Of a stretch of 22,888 nucleotides of DNA, positions 44-8,994 are shown piece after piece. Position numbers and translations under genes: made by a program. Origin of the DNA: a virus; the IMG/VR virus record IMGVR_UViG_3300029624_000058, positions 1-22,888 of that record; one strand, written 5' to 3'. The first letter of the stretch is position 1. The number at the start of each line of letters is the position of its first letter. The notes below the pieces were generated by a model, which saw only the letters and a list, made by a program, of their open reading frames with translations, was not told the origin of the DNA and ran no database searches.

Positions 44-484
44 ATGCCACGACTAGCGAAGCCGAAGACGCGGGCGATCATCATGCACGCGCTGTCCAAG
101 TTCTGCAGCAAGCAAGCCGATCGAAGCCAGCTCGAGGGCGGCGACCAATACGACGTCGACCTGGCGATCAGCGGAACGATTGGAAACCAGAAGGTGGAAG
201 ACGTTTGCCGCGGATCTCTATCCGTTGGGTATGACTCCACGCGAAACGCAAGCAACGCGATCGCACCCGCCAAGCTAGTCGCGTTCCTCTTGAACGCAGA
301 TCCCGAGAAAGCCGGCAAGCTATCCGAGCAGCTGCGGAAGCTGGCCGCAAGCGGAAAGATCGGCGACAAGGTCACGGCCGATCAGGAAGCCCACGCGGCC
401 AGCCTGATCACATTGTTCAATCAAACGACATCGACGGCGGCGAAGGGATCCGTTTCATTCAAAGCAGCGAAGGCGGCCGCGTAG
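44..484 (+). CDS. Hypothetical protein, 146 aa
   Basis: I do not recognise this protein. It starts with a basic stretch (MPRLAKPKTR), has no obvious signal peptide or membrane segment, and ends in an alanine/lysine-rich tail (KAAKAAA). The middle is mixed alpha/beta in character, so a soluble cytoplasmic protein is likely. The reading frame is open without a stop to the left edge of the window (14 codons), so an upstream start is possible. However, AAGGGGG at 32-38 lies 5 nt before ATG 44 and makes this start convincing. The next gene begins 2 nt after the stop, which suggests co-transcription with the envelope-type genes that follow. No function can be assigned. Confidence 0.75.
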   Translation: MPRLAKPKTRAIIMHALSKFCSKQADRSQLEGGDQYDVDLAISGTIGNQKVEDVCRGSLSVGYDSTRNASNAIAPAKLVAFLLNADPEKAGKLSEQLRKLAASGKIGDKVTADQEAHAASLITLFNQTTSTAAKGSVSFKAAKAAA

Positions 485-486
485 CT

Positions 487-1128
487 ATGGACCGACGCCA
501 AGCCGCCGCCGCGATCGTGATGCTTTCCGCCTGCCTGGTTGGCGGCGATGAAGTCGCCGGCATGGCGATCGAGTACTTCCGCCGGAAGCCGATCGACCTG
601 GCCAGGCCGCCGGCCGACGTGCCGTTTCCGCTACGCGTGAAGAATTACGTGCGACATCGGGAAGGCAGCTGCTTCCACGTATCGACCCAAGTGGCGTTGC
701 GTTGGGCCGATCAGGGAGCGATCGCGGACAATTGGCGGCAGAGTTTCGGGGGCGGTGCGTCGACCAGCGACATCGCCCGCATATTGGACCGCTACAAAAT
801 CCCCTACAAGCGGACGCACATCGTCAACTACGGGCCGAACGAAGACGGCAACGTCGAAATTCTGGACTATGCCCACAACCACCGCCTGGCCGCGGCGATC
901 CACTACTTCCGCGGCCACGCGATCAACTTCCTGGGCTGGGTCGAGAAAGACGGCCAGGCGATGGCCTGCCTGTTGGATAACAACCGGCCGCAAGAGTTCA
1001 TATTCGTTGAAAAGAATCAATTCCTCTGGAATTGGCGAAACCGGTACCACGGCGGCGCGATCGTTCCCCTGGTGAAACCATTGCCGCCGCTACCCTACGA
1101 CCCCCGCGATTTTTTGGAGAAGCCTTAG
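487..1128 (+). CDS. Membrane-anchored C39/papain-like cysteine peptidase-like protein
   Basis: This 213-aa protein begins with a short hydrophobic segment (about residues 6-20, AAAAIVMLSACLVGG) that could be a signal peptide, lipobox-like signal or anchor. The body has the order of a papain/C39-type catalytic triad: Cys62 in GSCFHVSTQVAL, His144 in GHAINFLGW, and Asp164/Asn165 in LLDNNRP. In such families Cys is the nucleophile, His the base and Asp/Asn orients His. The tail is proline-rich (PLPPLPYDP). The Shine-Dalgarno sequence is weak (AAGGCGG), and translational coupling to the previous stop is likely. It could be an envelope-side peptidase, a lysis-related endopeptidase, or an inactive fold member. 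The fold call comes from motif order only. Confidence 0.65.
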   Translation: MDRRQAAAAIVMLSACLVGGDEVAGMAIEYFRRKPIDLARPPADVPFPLRVKNYVRHREGSCFHVSTQVALRWADQGAIADNWRQSFGGGASTSDIARILDRYKIPYKRTHIVNYGPNEDGNVEILDYAHNHRLAAAIHYFRGHAINFLGWVEKDGQAMACLLDNNRPQEFIFVEKNQFLWNWRNRYHGGAIVPLVKPLPPLPYDPRDFLEKP

Positions 1129-1130
1129 CT

Positions 1131-1454
1131 ATGGCCTTCGGATTGCCACCCGCGAAAAAGGAAAGCGAAACGCCAGCGAAGCCGGCCGAACCACAACGCA
1201 AGCGACCGCCAGCCACGTGGTCGGAACTGTCGGTTGGTTTCGCGTTGGTGTTTTGCTGCCTGATGTCGGGCTTCACGTTCTGCGATCGCTTCGTGCCCGA
1301 GCTGGCCGCCTGGTGGAATTCGCCGCGGCATTGCCAGTGCCAAGAGTGCGAGTGGATCCGCGCGAACTGTCGGCCGACGCCGCCACCTTCGGCGATGCCG
1401 ATGATCCTACCGAATCGACGCCCCTTGCCACCGATCCAACCGCCGGCAATTTAA
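1131..1454 (+). CDS. Small single-pass membrane protein with a cysteine cluster, 107 aa
   Basis: I place the start at ATG 1131, two bases after the previous stop and with GGAGAAG upstream; the frame also opens earlier, inside the preceding gene. The N-terminal 30 residues are charged and proline-rich. One transmembrane helix follows (about residues 34-50, VGFALVFCCLMSGFTF), then a short region with closely spaced cysteines (HCQCQECEWIRANC, a C-x-C-x2-C-x6-C pattern), and a proline-rich end. The cysteines could bind metal or form disulfides, depending on topology. I know no family for it. It is the second of four consecutive envelope-type genes. Confidence 0.65.
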   Translation: MAFGLPPAKKESETPAKPAEPQRKRPPATWSELSVGFALVFCCLMSGFTFCDRFVPELAAWWNSPRHCQCQECEWIRANCRPTPPPSAMPMILPNRRPLPPIQPPAI

Positions 1455-1497
1455 CCGGCGAAACCTTCAACCGTTTTGAAATGGGAACCGTTCAACC

Positions 1498-2292
1498 ATG
1501 GGGGAAATGATGATCCGCAAACTGATCGCCGGCGTGATTGTCGGCTTGTCGCTATTGGCCAGCGGTTTCGCTGAGTCGAAACCGCCGGAGCCTGAGCAAA
1601 TGGAATTCGTTCAAGAGATCGAAGGGGTAGAGCTGCCGCCGTATGCCAAGTGGTACACGGTTCTGGTTACCGCGAAGGGCCACGCCACGCCGATCGCCGG
1701 CTGGTTCGATGCGGATCCGCGGCTTGCGGAGATGAAACGCAAGACGGAATGGCGGCACTACCAAAGCGACAGCCAGGCCTTCCGCCACCAGCTGGCCGCG
1801 GCCTACGGGAATGATTTCCCGATGCTGGTGATCCAAGACCACGACGGGGCGATGCGTGCCCAATTGACCGGCACGCTGTTAAAGCAGATCCAGACACCGG
1901 ACGAACTGGTCGGCGCGTTGGACCTGGCAGCGCAGACATTGCGGCCGGTCGAGCTACGCAAGCGACGCGAAGCCGTTGTTGGCGGTTGGCTATTCAACCG
2001 ACGGCCGCGGCCGAATCCGGACAGCTGCCCCGATGGGAGCTGCAACCCCGATCTACCGCCCGCGCCCAACGAAGACGATTACAACCAACCGCCGGCGGAA
2101 ACCAAGCCGAAGGAAACGCCGCCGGCGAAGTCGTCGACACCACTGGCCGACCTGGCGATCTCCATCTTCGGCGATCGGGCCAAGCCTTGGGTAAATGGAT
2201 TCAACCCAGCGGAAACCCTGATCGCCGGCGGGATTGTTGGCGGAGCGCTCTGGTGGAAACGCCGGAAGAATCGCAAGGCCGGCAAGTCTTAA
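1498..2292 (+). CDS. Secreted thioredoxin-fold-like protein with C-terminal membrane anchor
   Basis: The protein has an N-terminal signal peptide (MIRKLIAGVIVGLSLLASG, with cleavage probably near GFAES). A domain of about 110 residues follows and reads like a thioredoxin fold: WYTVLVTAKG, then GWFDADPRL, then a DFPMLVIQDHDG segment that resembles the cis-proline strand. There is no CXXC motif at the expected site, so a dithiol redox role is unlikely. A proline-rich linker (about 170-205) leads to a C-terminal hydrophobic helix (TLIAGGIVGGALWW) and a basic tail (KRRKNRKAGKS), the usual pattern of an inner-membrane anchor. Three starts are in frame (1498, 1507, 1510). ATG 1510 gives the cleanest signal peptide, while 1498 has GGGAA upstream. 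The fold call is tentative. Confidence 0.7.
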   Translation: MGEMMIRKLIAGVIVGLSLLASGFAESKPPEPEQMEFVQEIEGVELPPYAKWYTVLVTAKGHATPIAGWFDADPRLAEMKRKTEWRHYQSDSQAFRHQLAAAYGNDFPMLVIQDHDGAMRAQLTGTLLKQIQTPDELVGALDLAAQTLRPVELRKRREAVVGGWLFNRRPRPNPDSCPDGSCNPDLPPAPNEDDYNQPPAETKPKETPPAKSSTPLADLAISIFGDRAKPWVNGFNPAETLIAGGIVGGALWWKRRKNRKAGKS

Positions 2293-2320
2293 TCTGTTTC
2301 ACGTTCCAAACCACACCACA

Positions 2321-2340
2321 CAACGAAGGGAATCGTTGCC
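2321..2340 (+). promoter_or_regulatory. Hairpin with Shine-Dalgarno in its loop
   Basis: CAACGA (2321-2326) pairs with TCGTTG (2333-2338), leaving AGGGAA as the loop. The ATG of the next gene starts two bases later at 2341. The ribosome-binding purines are therefore displayed in, or sequestered by, a six-base-pair hairpin. The leader before it is rich in A and C and should be unstructured. Confidence 0.4.
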
Positions 2341-2805
2341 ATGTTGAGCAGTCCTGTTTTGATCGGCCTAGCCGCGGCCGCTTATATCTTGTTCTTCTAC
2401 AAGCCGAAGGACGAAACCGAAGGCGGCCAGGCACAACCGGCCGACGCGAAGGAAACCACGCTGGCCGGCCGCCTGGTCGATCGCGTCGAATCGAAGGTCC
2501 TGCAGAAGGCGCAAGCGGCCGCCGCGAAGAACGGCCTGCCCGCGGTCGCCGATCTACTCGGGGCAGTCGATCGCGGCGACGGCGTCGCGCTGGCCACGAT
2601 CGCGGAGAACCTGGTCGAGCAGCTGGGCACATCGGAAGGCCGCCGCTACCTGATGGGGAAAACGGTCCGCGGTTGGATCGCCGAAGCGGCCGCGAATGAT
2701 CCGAGCGAGTTTTCCGCGATCGCAGCGGACGTGAACAACCGCAAGAAGGACGTGGAAGACAACGCCAAGCGGATCGCGTCGGACGGCGCGTTGAAAGCCC
2801 AATAA
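2341..2805 (+). CDS. Membrane-anchored hypothetical protein, 154 aa
   Basis: The N-terminus is one transmembrane helix (about residues 4-20, SPVLIGLAAAAYILFFY) followed by a charged stop-transfer region (KPKDETEGG). The remaining 120 residues look helical and soluble, with several alanine-rich helices (RLVDRVESKVLQKAQAAAAK; IAENLVEQL; VNNRKKDVEDNAKRIA). No family is recognised. The likely topology is an N-terminal anchor with the bulk on one side of the membrane. It is the last gene before the 2922-2943 terminator, so it closes the envelope-type block. A helical coat or scaffold-like role is possible but unsupported. Confidence 0.65.
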   Translation: MLSSPVLIGLAAAAYILFFYKPKDETEGGQAQPADAKETTLAGRLVDRVESKVLQKAQAAAAKNGLPAVADLLGAVDRGDGVALATIAENLVEQLGTSEGRRYLMGKTVRGWIAEAAANDPSEFSAIAADVNNRKKDVEDNAKRIASDGALKAQ

Positions 2806-2823
2806 CGGCTAACCGTTTGAGAA

Positions 2824-2857
2824 GCCCCGCGGCGGTTCTTCGGATCGGCCGCGGGGC
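2824..2857 (+). repeat. Ten-base-pair GC stem-loop without U-tract
   Basis: GCCCCGCGGC (2824-2833) is the exact inverse complement of GCCGCGGGGC (2848-2857), with a 14-nt loop. No T-run follows. It may protect the 3' end of the upstream transcript, or belong to a larger structure together with the 14-bp inverted repeat 2866-2879/2925-2938. Confidence 0.55.
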
Positions 2858-2921
2858 GATGTTACACGCGGCCGCCGCGGCTATCGGGTTTAGTCCATCC
2901 GCTGGCCAGGTCAATCGCAAG

Positions 2922-2943
2922 AAACGCGGCGGCCGCGTTTTTT
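2922..2943 (+). terminator. Intrinsic terminator after the envelope-type block
   Basis: AAACGCGG (2922-2929), loop CGG, and CCGCGTTT (2933-2940) form an eight-base-pair stem leading into a run of six T (2938-2943). Its left arm can alternatively pair over 14 bp with 2866-2879. The position after a stop and before a long gap fits an operon end. Confidence 0.7.
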
Positions 2944-2981
2944 AATTCAACGCTTCCGAGTCGGCTTCTCTGGTCGGCCGG

Positions 2982-2987
2982 CATAAT
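2982..2987 (+). promoter_or_regulatory. Possible -10 box before the packaging genes
   Basis: CATAAT at 2982-2987 is one base from TATAAT and lies just after a terminator, where a new promoter is expected. There is no convincing -35 hexamer. If it is used, the transcript would begin near 2994, so ATG 3008 and not ATG 2993 would be the start of the next gene. Confidence 0.2.
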
Positions 2988-3007
2988 TCAGCATGAAGGG
3001 GCAGGCT

Positions 3008-3862
3008 ATGTTTTACGATCTTCTATCGTGGTGCGTTTTTCTGATCGTGGCGATCGCCGCGGTCGAATTCTTCCGTTGGCTTTTCATCACTCCACCAGGT
3101 GAAGAACCGGAAGATGATCGCGACGCGGAAGGGATGAAGGAAGCCTGCCGCTACGACTTGCGGAAGTTCTGCGAGTACTACCTGAGAGACACCTTCTACA
3201 ACGAATTCACGCCACGCCAGGCGCGAACGATCGCCGGCCTGCAGTCGGTGATTTTGTTCGGCGGTGAGTTTCCCGGCGTGATCGGACGTGGAGAAGGTAC
3301 TACGTCGATGATCAAGGCCGCGGCGATCTGGGCGGCCGCCTATCGTCACCGCAAATTTATCGTGTTGCTAAGTTGCTGGGCTTCCAGCGCCATAGCGTTA
3401 CGCTGCCAGGTTGAAGGCGAACTTTGGGAGAATGCGCGACTAGTTCGCGACTTTCCGCGGGGCAAACCTTGGTCGCCAATCGGTTTCTATTCGCTATCCG
3501 AGAATTTGCGTCAAGTGATCGAAGTCAACTACGTGACATGCCCCGACTGCGTGCTGGTTGATTCAGTCGAAAGCAATCCAAAAACTCGCGCAATTGTCGA
3601 ACGTCGCCGCCGCTACTTGAAGCGGTTTGTCGACGATCTCCACTTCCGGCAACCGGCCGGCGGTCAACTCGCGGTCGCCAACTTGGTAGGAGTCGAACGC
3701 CAACAAGAGCTACTCGCGAAGTACGCCAGGGCGCAAGCAATCAACCAGATGACGGCCGAAGAGATCCGCGCGAAGTTTGCCAAGTGGTCAGAGTCGCAAC
3801 CGATCAGCGTGGGCCAGGCCTACGTTCAAAGCGAACCACCAGCTGCCCCGCGAGGCGAATAG
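3008..3862 (+). CDS. Membrane-anchored, catalytically degenerate terminase ATPase-domain paralogue
   Basis: ATG 3008 is preceded by AAGGGG at 2996-3001; an in-frame ATG at 2993 would add five residues. The 284-aa product begins with a transmembrane helix (about residues 5-27, LLSWCVFLIVAIAAVEFF). From residue 45 it aligns colinearly with the ATPase domain of the large terminase encoded at 4046. Both share EACRYDLR. The Walker A PRGSGKTT of the terminase corresponds here to GRGEGTTS (93-100), so the catalytic lysine is Thr98. The Walker B LVLLDDP corresponds to CVLVDSV, so the second acid is Ser186. Shared HxKFxV and DFP follow at matching positions. The nuclease domain is absent. ATP hydrolysis is therefore unlikely. 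I infer a membrane-located regulator, decoy or docking partner of the packaging motor, or a decayed duplicate. The frame is intact, which argues against simple decay. Confidence 0.75.
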   Translation: MFYDLLSWCVFLIVAIAAVEFFRWLFITPPGEEPEDDRDAEGMKEACRYDLRKFCEYYLRDTFYNEFTPRQARTIAGLQSVILFGGEFPGVIGRGEGTTSMIKAAAIWAAAYRHRKFIVLLSCWASSAIALRCQVEGELWENARLVRDFPRGKPWSPIGFYSLSENLRQVIEVNYVTCPDCVLVDSVESNPKTRAIVERRRRYLKRFVDDLHFRQPAGGQLAVANLVGVERQQELLAKYARAQAINQMTAEEIRAKFAKWSESQPISVGQAYVQSEPPAAPRGE

Positions 3863-3870
3863 GGGCAAAC

Positions 3871-4053
3871 GTGAAACCGGCCGATCTGACCAAGCTGTCG
3901 ATGAAGAAGGCCGCGGAGCTTATGCACGTCGATCGGGCCGTTGTTGCCGAGCTGGTGAGGCAAGGCTGCCCCCGCAACGCGAACGGCACGATCAACCTTT
4001 ACAAGCTGACCGCCTGGCTACTGGTGCGCACCAAGGGGGAAGCCGTTGGCTAG
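3871..4053 (+). CDS. Small HTH protein, candidate terminase small subunit
   Basis: I choose GTG 3871, which has AGGGGC immediately upstream; the frame opens further left inside the previous gene. The 60-aa product contains a compact helix-turn-helix stretch (MKKAAELMHVDRAVVAELVR) followed by GCPRNANGTINLYKLTAWLL. This resembles the Nu1-type winged-helix pattern in which a GxP turn and a final W-containing helix follow the recognition helix. Its place directly before the large terminase, overlapping it by eight bases, is where terS lies in lambda-like phages. At 60 aa it is much shorter than usual small terminases, so part of that role may sit in the N-terminal extension of the large subunit. 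An excisionase-like regulator is the alternative. Confidence 0.6.
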   Translation: MKPADLTKLSMKKAAELMHVDRAVVAELVRQGCPRNANGTINLYKLTAWLLVRTKGEAVG

Positions 4054-6343
4054 TTTCAAGATCGACGCGGCCGAACTGTTGAAGGAGATCAACAGCGCCG
4101 GCCTGGGGCAAGTGATCGACGCGCGGACGTTACGCCGCCACCGCGAACAATGGGAGCTGGGCAAGTCGATCGACGTGGGAACCTATGCGGCTCACCTGGT
4201 CGATCGGTACCAGGCGAAGCAAGCCAAGTCGATCACCTACGAAGATAAGAAAGACAAGGCCAGGCAGCGCAGCGAGGAACAAACCCGCAAGGGGCAAGAC
4301 ATCGGGGCGTTGCCCGATATCTTCGATCCGGACCGCCGCGAAGCGTGCCGCTATGATCTGCGGTTATTCTTCGACACCTACATCGCCCCCGAGGATTTCT
4401 TCGCGTGGTCACCTGATCACCTGGATATCTTCGCGACGATGCAGGATGCGATTCTAAACGGCGGCAACTTCGCGTTGGCCATGCCCCGCGGATCCGGCAA
4501 GACCACGATCACCGAGGCGGCCGCGTTGTGGGCTTTGCTATTCGGCCACGTGAAGTTTGTGGTGATTGTCGGCGCGACCGGAGAGAAGGCAGTCGACCTA
4601 CTGGAAACGATCAAGACTTACCTGGTCGCGAAGGAAAAGCTAGTCGAAGATTTTCCGGAAGCGTGCGTCCCGATTATGAAGCTGGAAGGCCAGCCAGGTC
4701 GATGCCGCGGCCAACGCTGCCAGGGCAAACGAACACAGATAGGCTGGCACGAAGATGAGCTGATATTTCCCACGATCGAAGGCAGCGCCTGCAGCGGGTC
4801 GATCATCCGCACGTTTGGCATTACCGCGAAGGGGATCCGCGGCCAGAAGTACACCAACGCCGAAGGCGTCACCTTCCGGCCTGACCTGGTGCTTTTGGAC
4901 GATCCGCAAGACGACGAATCGGCGGCTAGCCCGGGCCAGGTCAAAAAACGCGAGAAGACGATCAACGGCACGATCGGCCGGCTGGGCGGACCTGGCAAAC
5001 CAGTAACGCTCATTATGCCTTGCACGGTGATCGAGCCGGATGACCTGGCATCGCGATACCTGGACCGCAAACGCTACCCGCGTTGGTCCGGCAAGCTAGT
5101 CCAAATGATGAAGTCTTTCCCCGCCAACGAGGCGATCTGGGAGGAGTACTTCACGATTCTGCGCGAGGACCTGGCCGCCGGCAAAAAGAACACGCGGGCC
5201 AACGCGTTCTATAAAAAGAACCGTAAGGAAATGGATCGCGGCGCGGAGGTCTACTGGGTTCACCGCTGGGACCCTGGCGAGATCTCAGCAATCCAGCACG
5301 CGATGCACATCCGCGACGACGACCCGGAAACCTTCGCGGCCGAATACCAAAACGACCCGATCAGCGCGGGGACGGTCGACCTGGTGATCGTCACCGCGGA
5401 CGAAATTGCGGCAAAGGTTCACAGCTACGGCCGCGACCAGCTGCCGATCGATACCGATATCGTCGTTGGCTACGTCGACCTGCAGTTGCGAATTCTCTAT
5501 TACGCGTTGGGTGCGATGCGTTGGGATTTCACCGGCCATATTCACAACTACGGCACCTGGCCGAAGCAACCGACCAAGTACTTCATTTACAGCCCGCAAA
5601 TCGCCGCGCCCATTCAGGGCCACCGAACCGAGGAAGGGATCCGCCTGGGTACGTTGTCCGAAGAGGCACAGATACGCCAGGCGCTCGAGATCCTGATCAA
5701 TCAAGATCTGATGCTGCGAACCTGGAAGCGTGAAGGGGACGGGGCAGAATTCCAGATTGATCTTCTGCTGATTGATATGGGGGACTGGACCCACATCGTT
5801 AAGCAGTTCATCGCCGAATCACCCCACCGCGCCCGCCTGATGCCCAACAAAGGCCGCGGCGTCGGCGCGAAGAATTCCAAGATCAGCGAAACGGCGAAGA
5901 AGCCAGGCGAAGAAATTGGCGAGGAGTGGATCATTCCGCGGGCCAAGGGTAAGGATCCCTTGCGGCATATCATCCACGACACGAACCACTGGAAAAGCGC
6001 CGTACAAAAACGCTGGAAGTCGCCGATCGGCGAGCCTGGTTGTCTAACGCTCTACAACGCGAAGCCGCACGAACACCGGATGATCTCGGAACACTGCGCG
6101 GCAGAGTTTGCCAACCGGATGAAGAACGAGAACAGCGGCAACACGGTCGACGAATGGAGTCTGAAGCCCAACCGCGACAACCACCTTCTGGACTGTGTCG
6201 CCGGCCTTCACGTTGCAGCAAGCCGTAAGGGGTGCGCGGTACCGTCGGCCGAACTAATGAAGGCGAAACCGAAGCGGAAACGCGGCGGCAGCGGCAAAAA
6301 GAAAATGAGCGAGCTGCGACGCGAAAGGCAGATGGGCCGTTAA
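4046..6343 (+). CDS. terL: Terminase large subunit (packaging ATPase-nuclease)
   Basis: The start is TTG 4046 with AAGGGGGA about 6 nt upstream, overlapping the previous stop by eight bases. The ATPase domain has Walker A PRGSGKTT at 147-154 and Walker B LVLLDDP with Asp285/Asp286. A C-terminal RNase H-like nuclease is indicated by three spaced acids: Asp478 (VGYVDLQ), Asp577 (LLLIDMGDW) and Asp716 (HLLDCVAG). The protein translocates DNA into the prohead at the portal and cuts concatemers. At 765 aa it is longer than most large terminases; the first 95 residues form an extra charged helical region (ARTLRRHREQW and a KDKARQRSEEQ segment) absent from the degenerate paralogue at 3008. The tail is basic (KPKRKRGGSGKKK). 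Confidence 0.93.
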   Translation: MASFKIDAAELLKEINSAGLGQVIDARTLRRHREQWELGKSIDVGTYAAHLVDRYQAKQAKSITYEDKKDKARQRSEEQTRKGQDIGALPDIFDPDRREACRYDLRLFFDTYIAPEDFFAWSPDHLDIFATMQDAILNGGNFALAMPRGSGKTTITEAAALWALLFGHVKFVVIVGATGEKAVDLLETIKTYLVAKEKLVEDFPEACVPIMKLEGQPGRCRGQRCQGKRTQIGWHEDELIFPTIEGSACSGSIIRTFGITAKGIRGQKYTNAEGVTFRPDLVLLDDPQDDESAASPGQVKKREKTINGTIGRLGGPGKPVTLIMPCTVIEPDDLASRYLDRKRYPRWSGKLVQMMKSFPANEAIWEEYFTILREDLAAGKKNTRANAFYKKNRKEMDRGAEVYWVHRWDPGEISAIQHAMHIRDDDPETFAAEYQNDPISAGTVDLVIVTADEIAAKVHSYGRDQLPIDTDIVVGYVDLQLRILYYALGAMRWDFTGHIHNYGTWPKQPTKYFIYSPQIAAPIQGHRTEEGIRLGTLSEEAQIRQALEILINQDLMLRTWKREGDGAEFQIDLLLIDMGDWTHIVKQFIAESPHRARLMPNKGRGVGAKNSKISETAKKPGEEIGEEWIIPRAKGKDPLRHIIHDTNHWKSAVQKRWKSPIGEPGCLTLYNAKPHEHRMISEHCAAEFANRMKNENSGNTVDEWSLKPNRDNHLLDCVAGLHVAASRKGCAVPSAELMKAKPKRKRGGSGKKKMSELRRERQMGR

Positions 6344-6346
6344 GCC

Positions 6347-6538
6347 ATGGTAACCAAACAACCACCAGCAAAGGCCGAAGCCGAACGAACCGACACGCCT
6401 GGCGTTCAATGTCCGGCGTGCGGATGCGGCCACGCCCCAGTATATTACACGCGGCAGCAATTGCGGCGAACGATCCGGCGACGGATCTGCCGGAAGTGCG
6501 GCCGGCGATTTACCACCACCGAACGCGTAACCGGATAA
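6347..6538 (+). CDS. NrdR-like zinc-ribbon protein, 63 aa
   Basis: Two cysteine pairs make a zinc ribbon: CPACGCGH (Cys22, Cys25) and CRKCGRRF (Cys48, Cys51). The second half, with RRRICRKCGRRFTTTERV, closely resembles the zinc ribbon of the ribonucleotide-reductase repressor NrdR. The ATP-cone domain that follows in NrdR is missing, so nucleotide-sensing repression is not expected. Small stand-alone zinc ribbons of phages (Ogr/Delta type, for example) activate late transcription, and DNA or RNA polymerase binding is a reasonable guess here. The gene starts 3 nt after the terL stop, so it is probably co-expressed with packaging genes, and it is the last gene before the 6585-6631 terminator. 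Confidence 0.75.
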   Translation: MVTKQPPAKAEAERTDTPGVQCPACGCGHAPVYYTRQQLRRTIRRRICRKCGRRFTTTERVTG

Positions 6539-6584
6539 TGCAATTAGGCACCATTTTTCTCTTTAGAGATTGAGCATCACTACG

Positions 6585-6631
6585 AAAAAAAGCGACGCTA
6601 GAAGTGGAATACTTCTAGCGTCGCTTTTTTT
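6585..6631. terminator. Perfect 21-bp terminator, active in both directions by design
   Basis: Bases 6585-6605 and 6611-6631 are exact inverse complements with a five-base loop (GGAAT). The arms end in seven A on the left and seven T on the right, so the structure is a valid intrinsic terminator for either strand. It ends the packaging transcript. It could also stop an antisense RNA that starts inside the island to the right. Confidence 0.9.
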
Positions 6632-6746
6632 AATTCTATCCAACGGATCCCCTCAAGTAGTCCGATTGTAGGGGCCGATCACAGACTTAGTGGACGATAG
6701 CTCCGTCCGTTTTAAAGTTCGTGTTCTTTTTGGGAAGGATCCTAAA

Positions 6747-6902
6747 ATGAATTGGCTCTCTGATGTTGTTGCATTTCTCGTGAAAGGTGCAATTAAGCTT
6801 GCACTAGTCCTGTTTCTCCTGAGCGTCTTTCTGGAAAAGGGCCCAGAAGTTATCCGGAAGTTCACACAGGAGTTCATCGGCGCCGTAAGAAGTGCAACTT
6901 AA
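6747..6902 (+). CDS. Moron-like small membrane peptide, 51 aa
   Basis: ATG 6747 has GGGAAGGA (6732-6739) seven bases upstream; a GTG at 6690 in the same frame is less likely. The peptide has one long hydrophobic helix (about residues 6-28, DVVAFLVKGAIKLALVLFLLSVF) followed by an amphipathic basic/acidic helix (EKGPEVIRKFTQEFIGAVR). By hand count the gene is about 46% GC against roughly 60% around it. It sits alone between two strong terminators, in the gap between terL and head genes that are normally adjacent. This matches the definition of a phage moron. Possible roles are superinfection exclusion, a type I toxin-like membrane peptide, or a small holin-like protein; the sequence does not decide between them. 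Confidence 0.6.
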   Translation: MNWLSDVVAFLVKGAIKLALVLFLLSVFLEKGPEVIRKFTQEFIGAVRSAT

Positions 6903-6946
6903 GGCAAATTGTGATTTGCGTCTTTAATAGCACTGAATGCAAATCG

Positions 6947-6979
6947 AAGCCGGTTTCCTCAGGGAAGCCGGCTTTTTTT
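6947..6979 (+). terminator. Intrinsic terminator closing the moron
   Basis: AAGCCGGTTTCC (6947-6958) pairs with GGAAGCCGGCTT (6963-6974) with one G-U pair and a four-base loop, followed by seven T (6973-6979). It lies about 45 bp after the stop of the 51-aa gene. A small extra hairpin, GCAAAT/ATTTGC at 6904-6919, lies between them. Confidence 0.85.
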
Positions 6980-7001
6980 GTACCGACGGCTTCTGGAAAG
7001 C

Positions 7002-7116
7002 TAGGCCGATGATCGGCCCAAATACGCCAAATCTCTAAGCCACTGATCGGCACATTTCGACGCCAGCCCCTAGCTTCTCGCGAAACGAAAATGGGCCGAA
7101 GTTCCAGATATGGAAC
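7002..7116. promoter_or_regulatory. Operator-like repeats in the leader of the head operon
   Basis: The region 6980-7276 has no convincing gene. It holds GGCCGAT-G-ATCGGCC (7004-7018), a perfect inverted repeat, and a related partial copy (TAAGCCACTGATCGGCACAT begins at 7036). The two 22-bp segments agree at about 16 positions and start 34 bp apart, roughly three helical turns. A separate perfect inverted repeat, GTTCCA-GATA-TGGAAC, lies at 7101-7116. Such spacing fits a regulator binding on one DNA face before the late genes. No clear -35/-10 pair is visible. Confidence 0.4.
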
Positions 7117-7276
7117 GCAATCCGGAAAACGGCCGCCAAGGGGGCGTTTCGATCTAACCAACGCCGCGGCGATCGCGTAACACCACCATCTACCCAGCGC
7201 GGCAACGGGGGGCGATCCACGCGATCGCCAACGCCGCGCACTCTTTTATTTTCGCGACGGGATCCAAGGGGCAGGG

Positions 7277-7477
7277 ATGGCCGACACCAACGAAGAAGCG
7301 ATCGCCAAGCTGGAAGCGGCGGCGACCAATCCAAAGCAGGTAACGGTCGACGGCGTGACGGTTCAAGCGCATTCGCTGAAGGACCAGATCGAGCTTGACC
7401 AATACCTGGCCAGGAAGAAGGCCGCACAAAAGGGCGGGATGCGTTTCCAAAAGATCGTGCCGCCTGGTACCGCGTAG
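7277..7477 (+). CDS. gpW-like head-tail connector protein, 66 aa
   Basis: This small protein lies between the terminase and the portal, where lambda has gene W (68 aa). Its layout matches the gpW-like pattern: an N-terminal helix (EEAIAKLEAAA), a short beta hairpin (QVTVDGVTVQAHS), a second helix (LKDQIELDQYLARKKAAQ) and a short C-terminal strand (MRFQKIV). Proteins of this kind bind under the portal to close the capsid and dock the tail. The ribosome site AAGGGGCAGGG is strong. The call rests on size, position and secondary-structure pattern, not on a search. Confidence 0.7.
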   Translation: MADTNEEAIAKLEAAATNPKQVTVDGVTVQAHSLKDQIELDQYLARKKAAQKGGMRFQKIVPPGTA

Positions 7478-7488
7478 GAGCTGCGAAC

Positions 7489-8994
7489 GTGGTACAAGCC
7501 AACAAATCATTGAGCCCGATTCTCGGGGCCGACGGCAACCAGATCCGACGCGAACCTTCCGCGGCCGTGATCGAACGGCAACGCGGCCGGATCCAAGAGC
7601 TACGCGCGAAGTACGACGCGGCGGTTACCAACTTCGACAATATGAAGCATTGGGCCAACGCGGACAATCTAAGCGCGTCGGCCGCCGCTAATCCCGTCGT
7701 TCGTCGCCGGCTGCGATCGCGTGCCCGCTACGAGTGCCGCGAAAATAACAGCTTCGCCAAGGGCATGATCGACACGCTGGCCAACGACATCGTCGGCCGC
7801 GGTCCGAATCTGCAGATCCATAGCGGCAGCCAATCCGCGGCAAAACAGCTCGAGCGGAATTTTCGCCGCTGGATGAAACGAACCGGCCTGGCCGCCACGC
7901 TACGAACCGCGGTAACCAGCGAAGTTTCCGACGGTGAGATCTTCGCGGTGAGTGGTAACAACCCCAACGTCCGCAACGCGGTCCAATTGGACGTGCGACT
8001 TCTTGAGGCCGACTATTGCAGCGACTTCGGCGGATTCCAAACGGCCACGTTCGACGACGGGATCGAATACGATTCTGCCGGCTATCCGATCGCCTACAAC
8101 TTTCTGGAAGATCACCCCGGCGACAACTTCGCCGGCGCTAGTCTTCTGAAGACGCAACGCGTCCGCGCCGACCAGGTGATCCACTACTACCGCCAAGATC
8201 GACCAGGCCAACGCCGCGGCATTTCTTGGGTAGCGCCCGCGTTGCCGCTGTTCGCGCTGCTACGACGCTACACGCTGGCCGTCACCATGGCCGCGGAAAC
8301 GGTCGCCAACTTCGCCGGCGTCATGTACGCCGACGGCAACCAGGTCATTCCCGACGATGAAGTCGATCCGATGGATTCGATCGAGTTCGAGATGCGATCG
8401 ATGCTAACGCTGCCGATCGGCTGGAAGCTGGGGCAGCTGAAAGCGGAGCAACCCACGACCACTTACCAGATGTTCCGCGACGCGCTGCTGTGTGAGATAT
8501 CGCGTTGCCTCAATATGCCGTTCAACAAGGCCAGCGGCAATTCGAGCGGCTACAACTTCGCCAGCGGTCGACTAGATCACCAGACTTACTTTGAATTCGT
8601 CGACATCGAGCGGAGCAACCTAGAAACGCAGTTCTTAGATCGCGTTTTCCTCTGGTGGATCAATGAGGCGGTTTTCATTCCTGGCGAGATCCCGGCCGGT
8701 ATCGGGCCGATTGATCAGCTGGAATATACCTGGCGATGGCCGAAGCACCAGCACATCGACCCGCAAAAACAAGCCGCGGCCGACATCGCTCTTTGGAACG
8801 CTGCCCTTCTGACAGATGAAGAATATCAGCTCGAGAACGGCCGCGACCCGGAAGAACACTACGCCAGCCTTGAACGCATGTACAAGCGTCGCGCCGTGAT
8901 CGGTGCGCCGCTGCCTGGTTTCCAGCAAGGGGCAGGAAGCCAGCCTGGCAACGAAACCACCGAAGAAGAGGCGGCCACCGATGACGACGAATAA
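7489..8994 (+). CDS. Portal protein, lambda gpB type
   Basis: The start is GTG 7489 with AGGAG at 7476-7480, overlapping the upstream stop. The 501-aa product has features of lambda-family portals: an N-terminal YDAA motif (RAKYDAAVTNFDNMKHW), then VVRRRLRSRARYECRENNSFAKGMIDTL broken around residue 80-105, with the NNxxAKGxIDTLxNDIVGRGPNLQ stretch typical of the family. The C-terminal part has WRWPKHQHIDPQKQAAAD and ends in an acidic tail (TTEEEAATDDDE). Twelve copies usually form the ring at one capsid vertex through which the terminase pumps DNA. It overlaps the next start (8981) by 14 bases, suggesting coupled translation. Confidence 0.92.
   Translation: MVQANKSLSPILGADGNQIRREPSAAVIERQRGRIQELRAKYDAAVTNFDNMKHWANADNLSASAAANPVVRRRLRSRARYECRENNSFAKGMIDTLANDIVGRGPNLQIHSGSQSAAKQLERNFRRWMKRTGLAATLRTAVTSEVSDGEIFAVSGNNPNVRNAVQLDVRLLEADYCSDFGGFQTATFDDGIEYDSAGYPIAYNFLEDHPGDNFAGASLLKTQRVRADQVIHYYRQDRPGQRRGISWVAPALPLFALLRRYTLAVTMAAETVANFAGVMYADGNQVIPDDEVDPMDSIEFEMRSMLTLPIGWKLGQLKAEQPTTTYQMFRDALLCEISRCLNMPFNKASGNSSGYNFASGRLDHQTYFEFVDIERSNLETQFLDRVFLWWINEAVFIPGEIPAGIGPIDQLEYTWRWPKHQHIDPQKQAAADIALWNAALLTDEEYQLENGRDPEEHYASLERMYKRRAVIGAPLPGFQQGAGSQPGNETTEEEAATDDDE

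Follow-up and report, generated by a model that had tools for sequence, protein, structure and literature searches.

A TerL-derived pseudo-ATPase with a predicted membrane helix, encoded directly before the terminase genes of a phage related to planctomycete prophages

The open reading frame at positions 3008–3862 of the 22 888-nucleotide stretch analysed here (an IMG/VR virus record; 'the window' refers to the whole of it) encodes a pseudo-ATPase that is firmly identified as a derivative of the large terminase, TerL, and is not itself a TerL. Few phage proteins are as conserved as TerL, which is also known to trigger bacterial immunity. We tentatively propose, with a probability of roughly one in three, that this pseudo-terminase is an accessory, moron-like protein that takes part in conflict, working by binding, as a membrane-tethered decoy; if true, this would give a defined, testable route to disarm TerL sensors or rival packaging motors. 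The nearest relatives of the window are planctomycete prophages and phages, and assignment of its host reaches no further than kinship to prophages of planctomycete genomes. Two related loci serve as the main comparisons, L001 (contig 3300030233_000279) and L112 (a contig of a planctomycete genome). The relevant features of the window are the following.

44–2805, plus strand: upstream module (genes 44–484, 487–1128, 1131–1454, 1498–2292 and 2341–2805), common to L001 and L112
2824–2943, plus strand: terminator-like element of two strong hairpins, with T6 after the second, separating the upstream module from the pseudo-terminase gene; also found in L001
3008–3862, plus strand: pseudo-terminase gene, 284 residues; N-terminal hydrophobic helix, acidic linker, dead TerL-type ATPase domain (approximately residues 41–235) and variable tail
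3029–3088, plus strand: predicted transmembrane helix, approximately residues 8–27, conserved in L001
3128–3259, plus strand: conserved block 1, residues 41–84; 93% identical to L001, dN 0.035, dN/dS ∼0.07 (0.035/0.507)
3284–3307, plus strand: degenerate Walker A motif GRGEGTTS, residues 93–100, with Lys replaced by Thr98 (from alignment); GEGTTSM is identical in L001
3290–3364, plus strand: conserved block 2, residues 95–119, covering the degenerate P-loop and the helix and strand after it; 96% identical to L001, dN 0.036, dN/dS 0.14 (0.036/0.261)
3548–3565, plus strand: degenerate Walker B motif CVLVDS, residues 181–186, with the second acid replaced by Ser186 (from alignment)
3871–4053, plus strand: probable small-terminase-like (terS-like) HTH gene, 60 residues, matching phrog_57 only at E 0.027
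4046–6343, plus strand: intact gpA-type TerL, 765 residues, with Walker A PRGSGKTT, Walker B LLDDP and a GpA_nuclease domain

The pseudo-terminase frame is open across all 284 codons, with AAGGGG a few bases 5′ of the ATG. Because this AAGGGG–ATG arrangement is kept in L001, whereas an in-frame upstream ATG at 2993 is not, we take the start to be correct as given. The N-terminal membrane helix was called by hydropathy only; residues 2–26 are helical in both AlphaFold models described below. Arg23 lies near the C-terminal end of the helix and no Lys or Arg precedes it, which suggests an N-out/C-in orientation with the ATPase-like domain in the cytoplasm. The frame ends about 50 residues past that domain.

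The initial annotation described the protein as collinear with the ATPase domain of the TerL encoded at 4046, and this is borne out by BLASTP (E = 3e-20; 39/107 residues identical, 36%, over residues 44–150). Beyond residue 150 the single-pair BLAST gives no match to this TerL; there the correspondence comes from a MAFFT alignment, which places CVLVDS of the pseudo-terminase on LVLLDD of TerL, and from the L001 copy, in which a second stretch aligns to TerL over the Walker B region (independent domain E 0.0014–0.004). The C-terminal half resembles TerL weakly. The L001 copy matches phrog_38 (E 2e-6), and a profile built from the two close dead copies, those of the window and L001, matches TerL ATPase domains throughout Planctomycetota. 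Pfam, PADLOC and PDB sequence searches gave no match for the dead copy, and a weak match of both proteins to phrog_14112 was uninformative.

A fold unrelated to the terminase ATPase had been set out beforehand as the outcome that would speak against this relationship; instead, T4 gp17 and PhiV-1 terminases head the structural matches. When only the two dead copies, and no TerL sequence, went into an AlphaFold model, its mean pLDDT was 56 and its best solved match was T4 gp17 (2o0j, Z 10.0, 172 residues, 4.6 Å), followed by 3cpe (Z 9.9) and, third, the PhiV-1 terminase (8dgc_E, Z 9.5); helicases and other P-loop proteins score lower (Z up to 7.8). A second model, for which TerL rows in the alignment are a biased input, reaches a mean confidence of 78, with residues 41–150 mostly at 86–97. 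Its top eight structural matches are all phage terminases, the best being PhiV-1 TerL in complex with Avs3 (8dgc_E, Z 14.4, 184 residues, 4.0 Å). The sequence match and the structural matches together identify a terminase-type ASCE P-loop ATPase domain, alike in sequence and fold to that of TerLs of the lambda gpA-like nuclease type (PF20454, phrog_38; structures of T4 gp17, PhiV-1, HK97 and P74-26).

What separates the protein from TerL is the loss of catalytic residues and of whole segments, together with the gain of the N-terminal hydrophobic helix; it is little over a third as long as TerL. The changes of the Walker A lysine to Thr98 and of the second Walker B acid to serine (Asp-Ser in place of two acids), both pointed out in the initial annotation, are confirmed, and they set the protein outside TerL at positions that are invariant in intact relatives: the Walker A Lys is present in 161/161, and the Walker B Asp-Asp in 161/161, of the distinct intact TerLs at the fetched loci. 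The C-terminal RNase H-like nuclease is missing as had been claimed, with a GpA_nuclease match in the TerL at 4046 and none in the pseudo-terminase. The W-S-x-D-H-L motif before Walker A, more than 90% conserved in TerLs, reads FTPRQA. Overlooked until now was the absence of about 60 TerL residues between the DFP motif and the strand before Walker B. From the residues lost we infer that ATP binding and hydrolysis are lost as well, and the job of the protein is probably non-catalytic.

A search for homologues beside terL with the same losses found a single close one, at 8001–8924 of L001. This copy is intact, 307 residues long and 58% identical, has the same losses (HHGEGTTS and CVLADS), the same hydrophobic helix and the same neighbours. 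In L112, the nearest relative with an empty site, TerL is 74% identical and the upstream module is complete, yet there is no pseudo-terminase between the homologue of gene 2341–2805 and the terS-like gene. The gene is also missing from about 160 other fetched TerL loci. Present in the window and L001, and absent from L112 between the same neighbours, the pseudo-terminase is accessory and rare.

One further, distinct dead copy was found in a prophage, L102, of another genome of the same order as L112. It is a 407-residue, ATPase-only frame whose Walker A reads RRGRGVTT, with Val for Lys, and whose Walker B reads FVLVDH, with His for Asp. It lies about 2.7 kb before an intact terL, from which other genes separate it, and adjoins a homologue of window gene 44–484; portal and major head genes follow downstream. 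Like the window protein it is short, nuclease-less, without the Walker A Lys and the second Walker B acid, and placed upstream of an intact TerL; unlike it, it has a different N-terminus without a membrane helix and keeps the middle of the ATPase domain. The membrane helix of the initial annotation therefore stands for the window and L001 proteins as a prediction, and a membrane anchor is not a general part of dead copies. Among the TerLs searched, the best match of the L102 copy is its own TerL. In trees the dead copies sit on very long branches, the three group only at 64/90, and AU tests do not reject the grouping of dead copies with their own TerLs (p 0.46); an independent origin of the L102 copy is unproven. 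Dead copies in two different prophage lineages suggest that such a conversion was not a one-off. Both homologous frames are intact, where mostly disrupted ones had been named as evidence against a maintained gene.

L001 and the L102 copy were the only further homologues in IMG/VR scans (with the window protein and with an alignment of both close copies), one genome scan, the INPHARED phages, 80 + 80 TerL loci, and genomes of Planctomycetota (392) and of the order of G209 (397). Other short TerL matches proved to be contig ends or frameshifted or interrupted TerLs, with Walker A intact wherever the loop could be read. In L102 a trypsin-like protease gene (6434–8038, minus strand; Pfam Trypsin_2, E 3e-11) lies between the dead ATPase and terL, and its product has a hydrophobic N-terminus and a Gly-rich, collagen-like stretch. 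L106 has terL in two overlapping frames (5063–7397, minus strand) on a large contig, through a frameshift or a sequencing error.

The view of the protein as a dead copy of TerL stands as far as descent goes; the neighbour does not look like its recent source. At 13 positions (within residues 43–150) it carries the neighbouring TerL's less common state against the majority of other TerLs, and Y49, L51, Q79 and I82, common to the two, occur in 0/26 other TerLs. At 12 positions, however, it retains what is common among other planctomycete TerLs, the neighbouring TerL being derived there. As read from the sequences, the L112 TerL agrees with the derived neighbour at most of these 12, and for this reason the paralogue seems to have branched off the TerL stem before the window and L112 TerLs split, a point that the trees cannot resolve. 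On the simplest reading, the pseudo-terminase was later lost in the L112 line or never arrived there.

Between the window and L001 the TerLs are 94.5% identical (dN/dS 0.08), whereas the dead genes are 54–58% identical with an overall dN/dS of 0.34, a selection estimate that rests on this one pair of sequences. The dead gene is a mosaic, with two blocks under strong purifying selection and much of the rest at or near dS saturation: over residues 120–235 dS is at or near saturation, against 0.4–0.5 in most flanking genes, and residues 85–94 are 10% identical to L001. Recombination with divergent alleles could have produced such a mosaic, which a single rate in one lineage hardly would. A frameshift was considered as the origin of the difference at residues 85–94; by eye, no offset match was seen between the two DNA strings. 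The GC3 of the dead gene, 0.65, is the lowest of the genes compared (0.72–0.82 in the others), a modest difference in composition. The earlier expectation that an intact frame is probably maintained agrees with the intact L001 copy and with the two constrained blocks, and the comparison supports a gene that is kept and not decaying.

A gap of 8 bases separates the pseudo-terminase stop from the terS-like gene, which overlaps terL, and the three genes probably form one transcript. A consensus scan of 2700–4100 found no sigma-70 promoter match and no canonical terminator. The two hairpins upstream fold better than shuffled sequences in both carriers (z −3.8 and −3.6), and by eye nothing like them was seen in the short intergenic stretch of L112; they could be a terminator or, given their place upstream of terS, part of a packaging site. 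In the window (2824–2943) and in L001 (7818–7936) this element is GC-rich with a T run, and the second hairpin contains the conserved stretch CATCCGCTGGCCAGGTCAATCGCAAGA. An Rfam search found no RNA family in the window. The upstream module (5007–7799 in L001, 5479–8300 in L112) consists of small proteins, most with hydrophobic segments: a putative signal or anchor in gene 487–1128, hydrophobic segments in 1498–2292 and 2341–2805 and, by eye, one in 1131–1454. None of its genes matched a Pfam, PHROG or PADLOC family above chance; it is possibly a lysis or envelope module.

The decoy that we propose would keep enough terminase surface to engage a terminase-binding partner while giving no working motor. 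The target might be part of the motor of a co-infecting phage, its subunits or its TerS, or else a host TerL sensor, and we slightly prefer interference with packaging by related phages to the blinding of an Avs-like TerL sensor. Several observations point this way: the low identity to L001 beside highly similar TerLs, with the divergence at residues 85–94 and the near-saturated dS over residues 120–235, resembles evolution under conflict; the gene has the lowest GC3 of those compared; it looks kept, with its constrained blocks and a divergence apparently older than the split of the neighbouring TerL from that of L112; it is accessory, for L112 lacks it while having the other genes of the module, and so do the remaining fetched TerL loci; an intact syntenic homologue has the same losses and a second dead copy exists in L102; and the gene is placed 8 bases before the terS-like gene and after the terminator-like element. 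Because it is apparently co-transcribed with the phage's own terS and terL, the decoy would act late in infection, and the same co-transcription argues against a constitutive prophage defence. The phage's own TerL might be spared through its long divergence from the decoy (36% identity). The pseudo-terminase is identical at 39/108 positions to its own TerL and at 29–41/108 to other planctomycete TerLs; as it is no closer to these, the sequence shows no sign of selective targeting of non-self terminases. The L102 copy, which has no membrane helix, argues against tethering as a general design. A further point against the proposal is that a decoy in an ATP-dependent recognition step might itself have to bind ATP, of which the pseudo-terminase is probably incapable.

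The protein might instead serve its own packaging machine, tuning or positioning the motor as an inactive subunit or as a tether to the membrane. Ring ATPases commonly contain pseudo-ATPase subunits, the gene is the first of an apparent operon with terS and terL at the close spacing given above, and both the P-loop helix and the segment preceding it fall within the two conserved blocks. A packaging system with such an inactive part tethered to the membrane would be unusual. We consider this role unlikely, and less likely than a decoy, since close relatives do without the gene: L112, with its similar TerL and the same upstream module, lacks it, as do the roughly 160 other loci, and the pseudo-terminase evolves far faster than TerL and TerS, out of step with them. 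A relic, that is, a duplicated terL fragment drifting to loss and open by chance, would fit a rare, fast-evolving gene with an internal deletion of about 60 residues and no catalytic sites that is absent in L112. It is made unlikely by a frame that is intact and has a ribosome-binding site in two phages, by blocks at dN/dS ∼0.07–0.14, by the identity of GEGTTSMIKAAAIWAAAYRHR in the window and L001 copies, by an apparent age greater than the split of the neighbouring TerL from that of L112, and by the second intact dead copy in another lineage. Least probable is that the terminase scaffold has taken on a new role, enzymatic or nucleotide-binding, through a deviant P-loop, for example via Lys103. 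Lambda gpA uses a deviant Walker A, the P-loop helix is conserved and Lys103 is kept in the window and L001 copies; but L001 has His in place of Arg94, no Lys is found on the loop's upstream side, and the losses extend to the second Walker B acid and to the motif preceding Walker A.

A decoy directed solely at a host sensor of the Avs1–3 type, binding it at the membrane as TerL is made and keeping it inactive, seems to us quite unlikely, about on a par with the relic. Avs1–4 sense TerL or portal, and Avs proteins recognize TerL (PMC12931631). The best match of the model built with TerL rows is the PhiV-1 terminase bound by Avs3, and the pseudo-terminase shares the ATPase-domain fold of the recognized ligand (PDB 8dgc; PMC12931631). 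Its translation directly before the terminase genes and its rapid, mosaic divergence would also suit such a role. Yet the 8dgc match reflects the terminase fold and not Avs binding; the pseudo-terminase, in contrast with the bound TerL, is catalytically dead and predicted to be membrane-anchored; the loss of ATP binding may spoil the mimicry; and literature searches gave no precedent.

In the decoy that we favour, the sensor side can point to the recognition of TerL by Avs proteins, and the side of conflict between phages has a precedent in kind only. The prophage gene tab, located between terminase genes, blocks virion assembly of incoming phages (PMC10884400). Its product, the tail-assembly blocker of a Pseudomonas prophage, acts on tails and is reported by its authors to have no similarity to known domains (PMC10884400). 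Its likeness to the pseudo-terminase appears limited to location and accessory nature: it is an accessory gene in the terminase region, absent from close relatives. Tab differs in that it has 83 residues, is encoded between terS and terL but on the other strand and from a promoter of its own, targets the tape measure protein and has an anti-Tab partner (PMC10884400). We found no description of an accessory pseudo-TerL in the papers and family libraries searched, and the statement of the initial annotation that no phage protein of this form is described therefore appears to hold within them.

The two lineages of dead copies invite a broader conjecture, to which we give a modest chance of being right: that planctomycete phages have repeatedly made decoys of dead TerL ATPases, encoded before their own terL, which blind TerL-sensing immunity or poison rival motors. 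If true, the motor itself would have supplied a class of proteins for counter-defence or competition.

Among the planctomycete loci compared, several terL frames, all on the minus strand (L104 3271–4311, L105 5735–6841, L107 6636–7142 and L200 2473–3342), stop at the Walker B strand, reading LVVL followed by D or E and then a shared kind of tail, RVExxxFxW. No Rfam intron was found in them at gathering thresholds. In L107 a second TerL piece repeats the stretch before Walker B, and the broken frames look like a recurrent insertion site.
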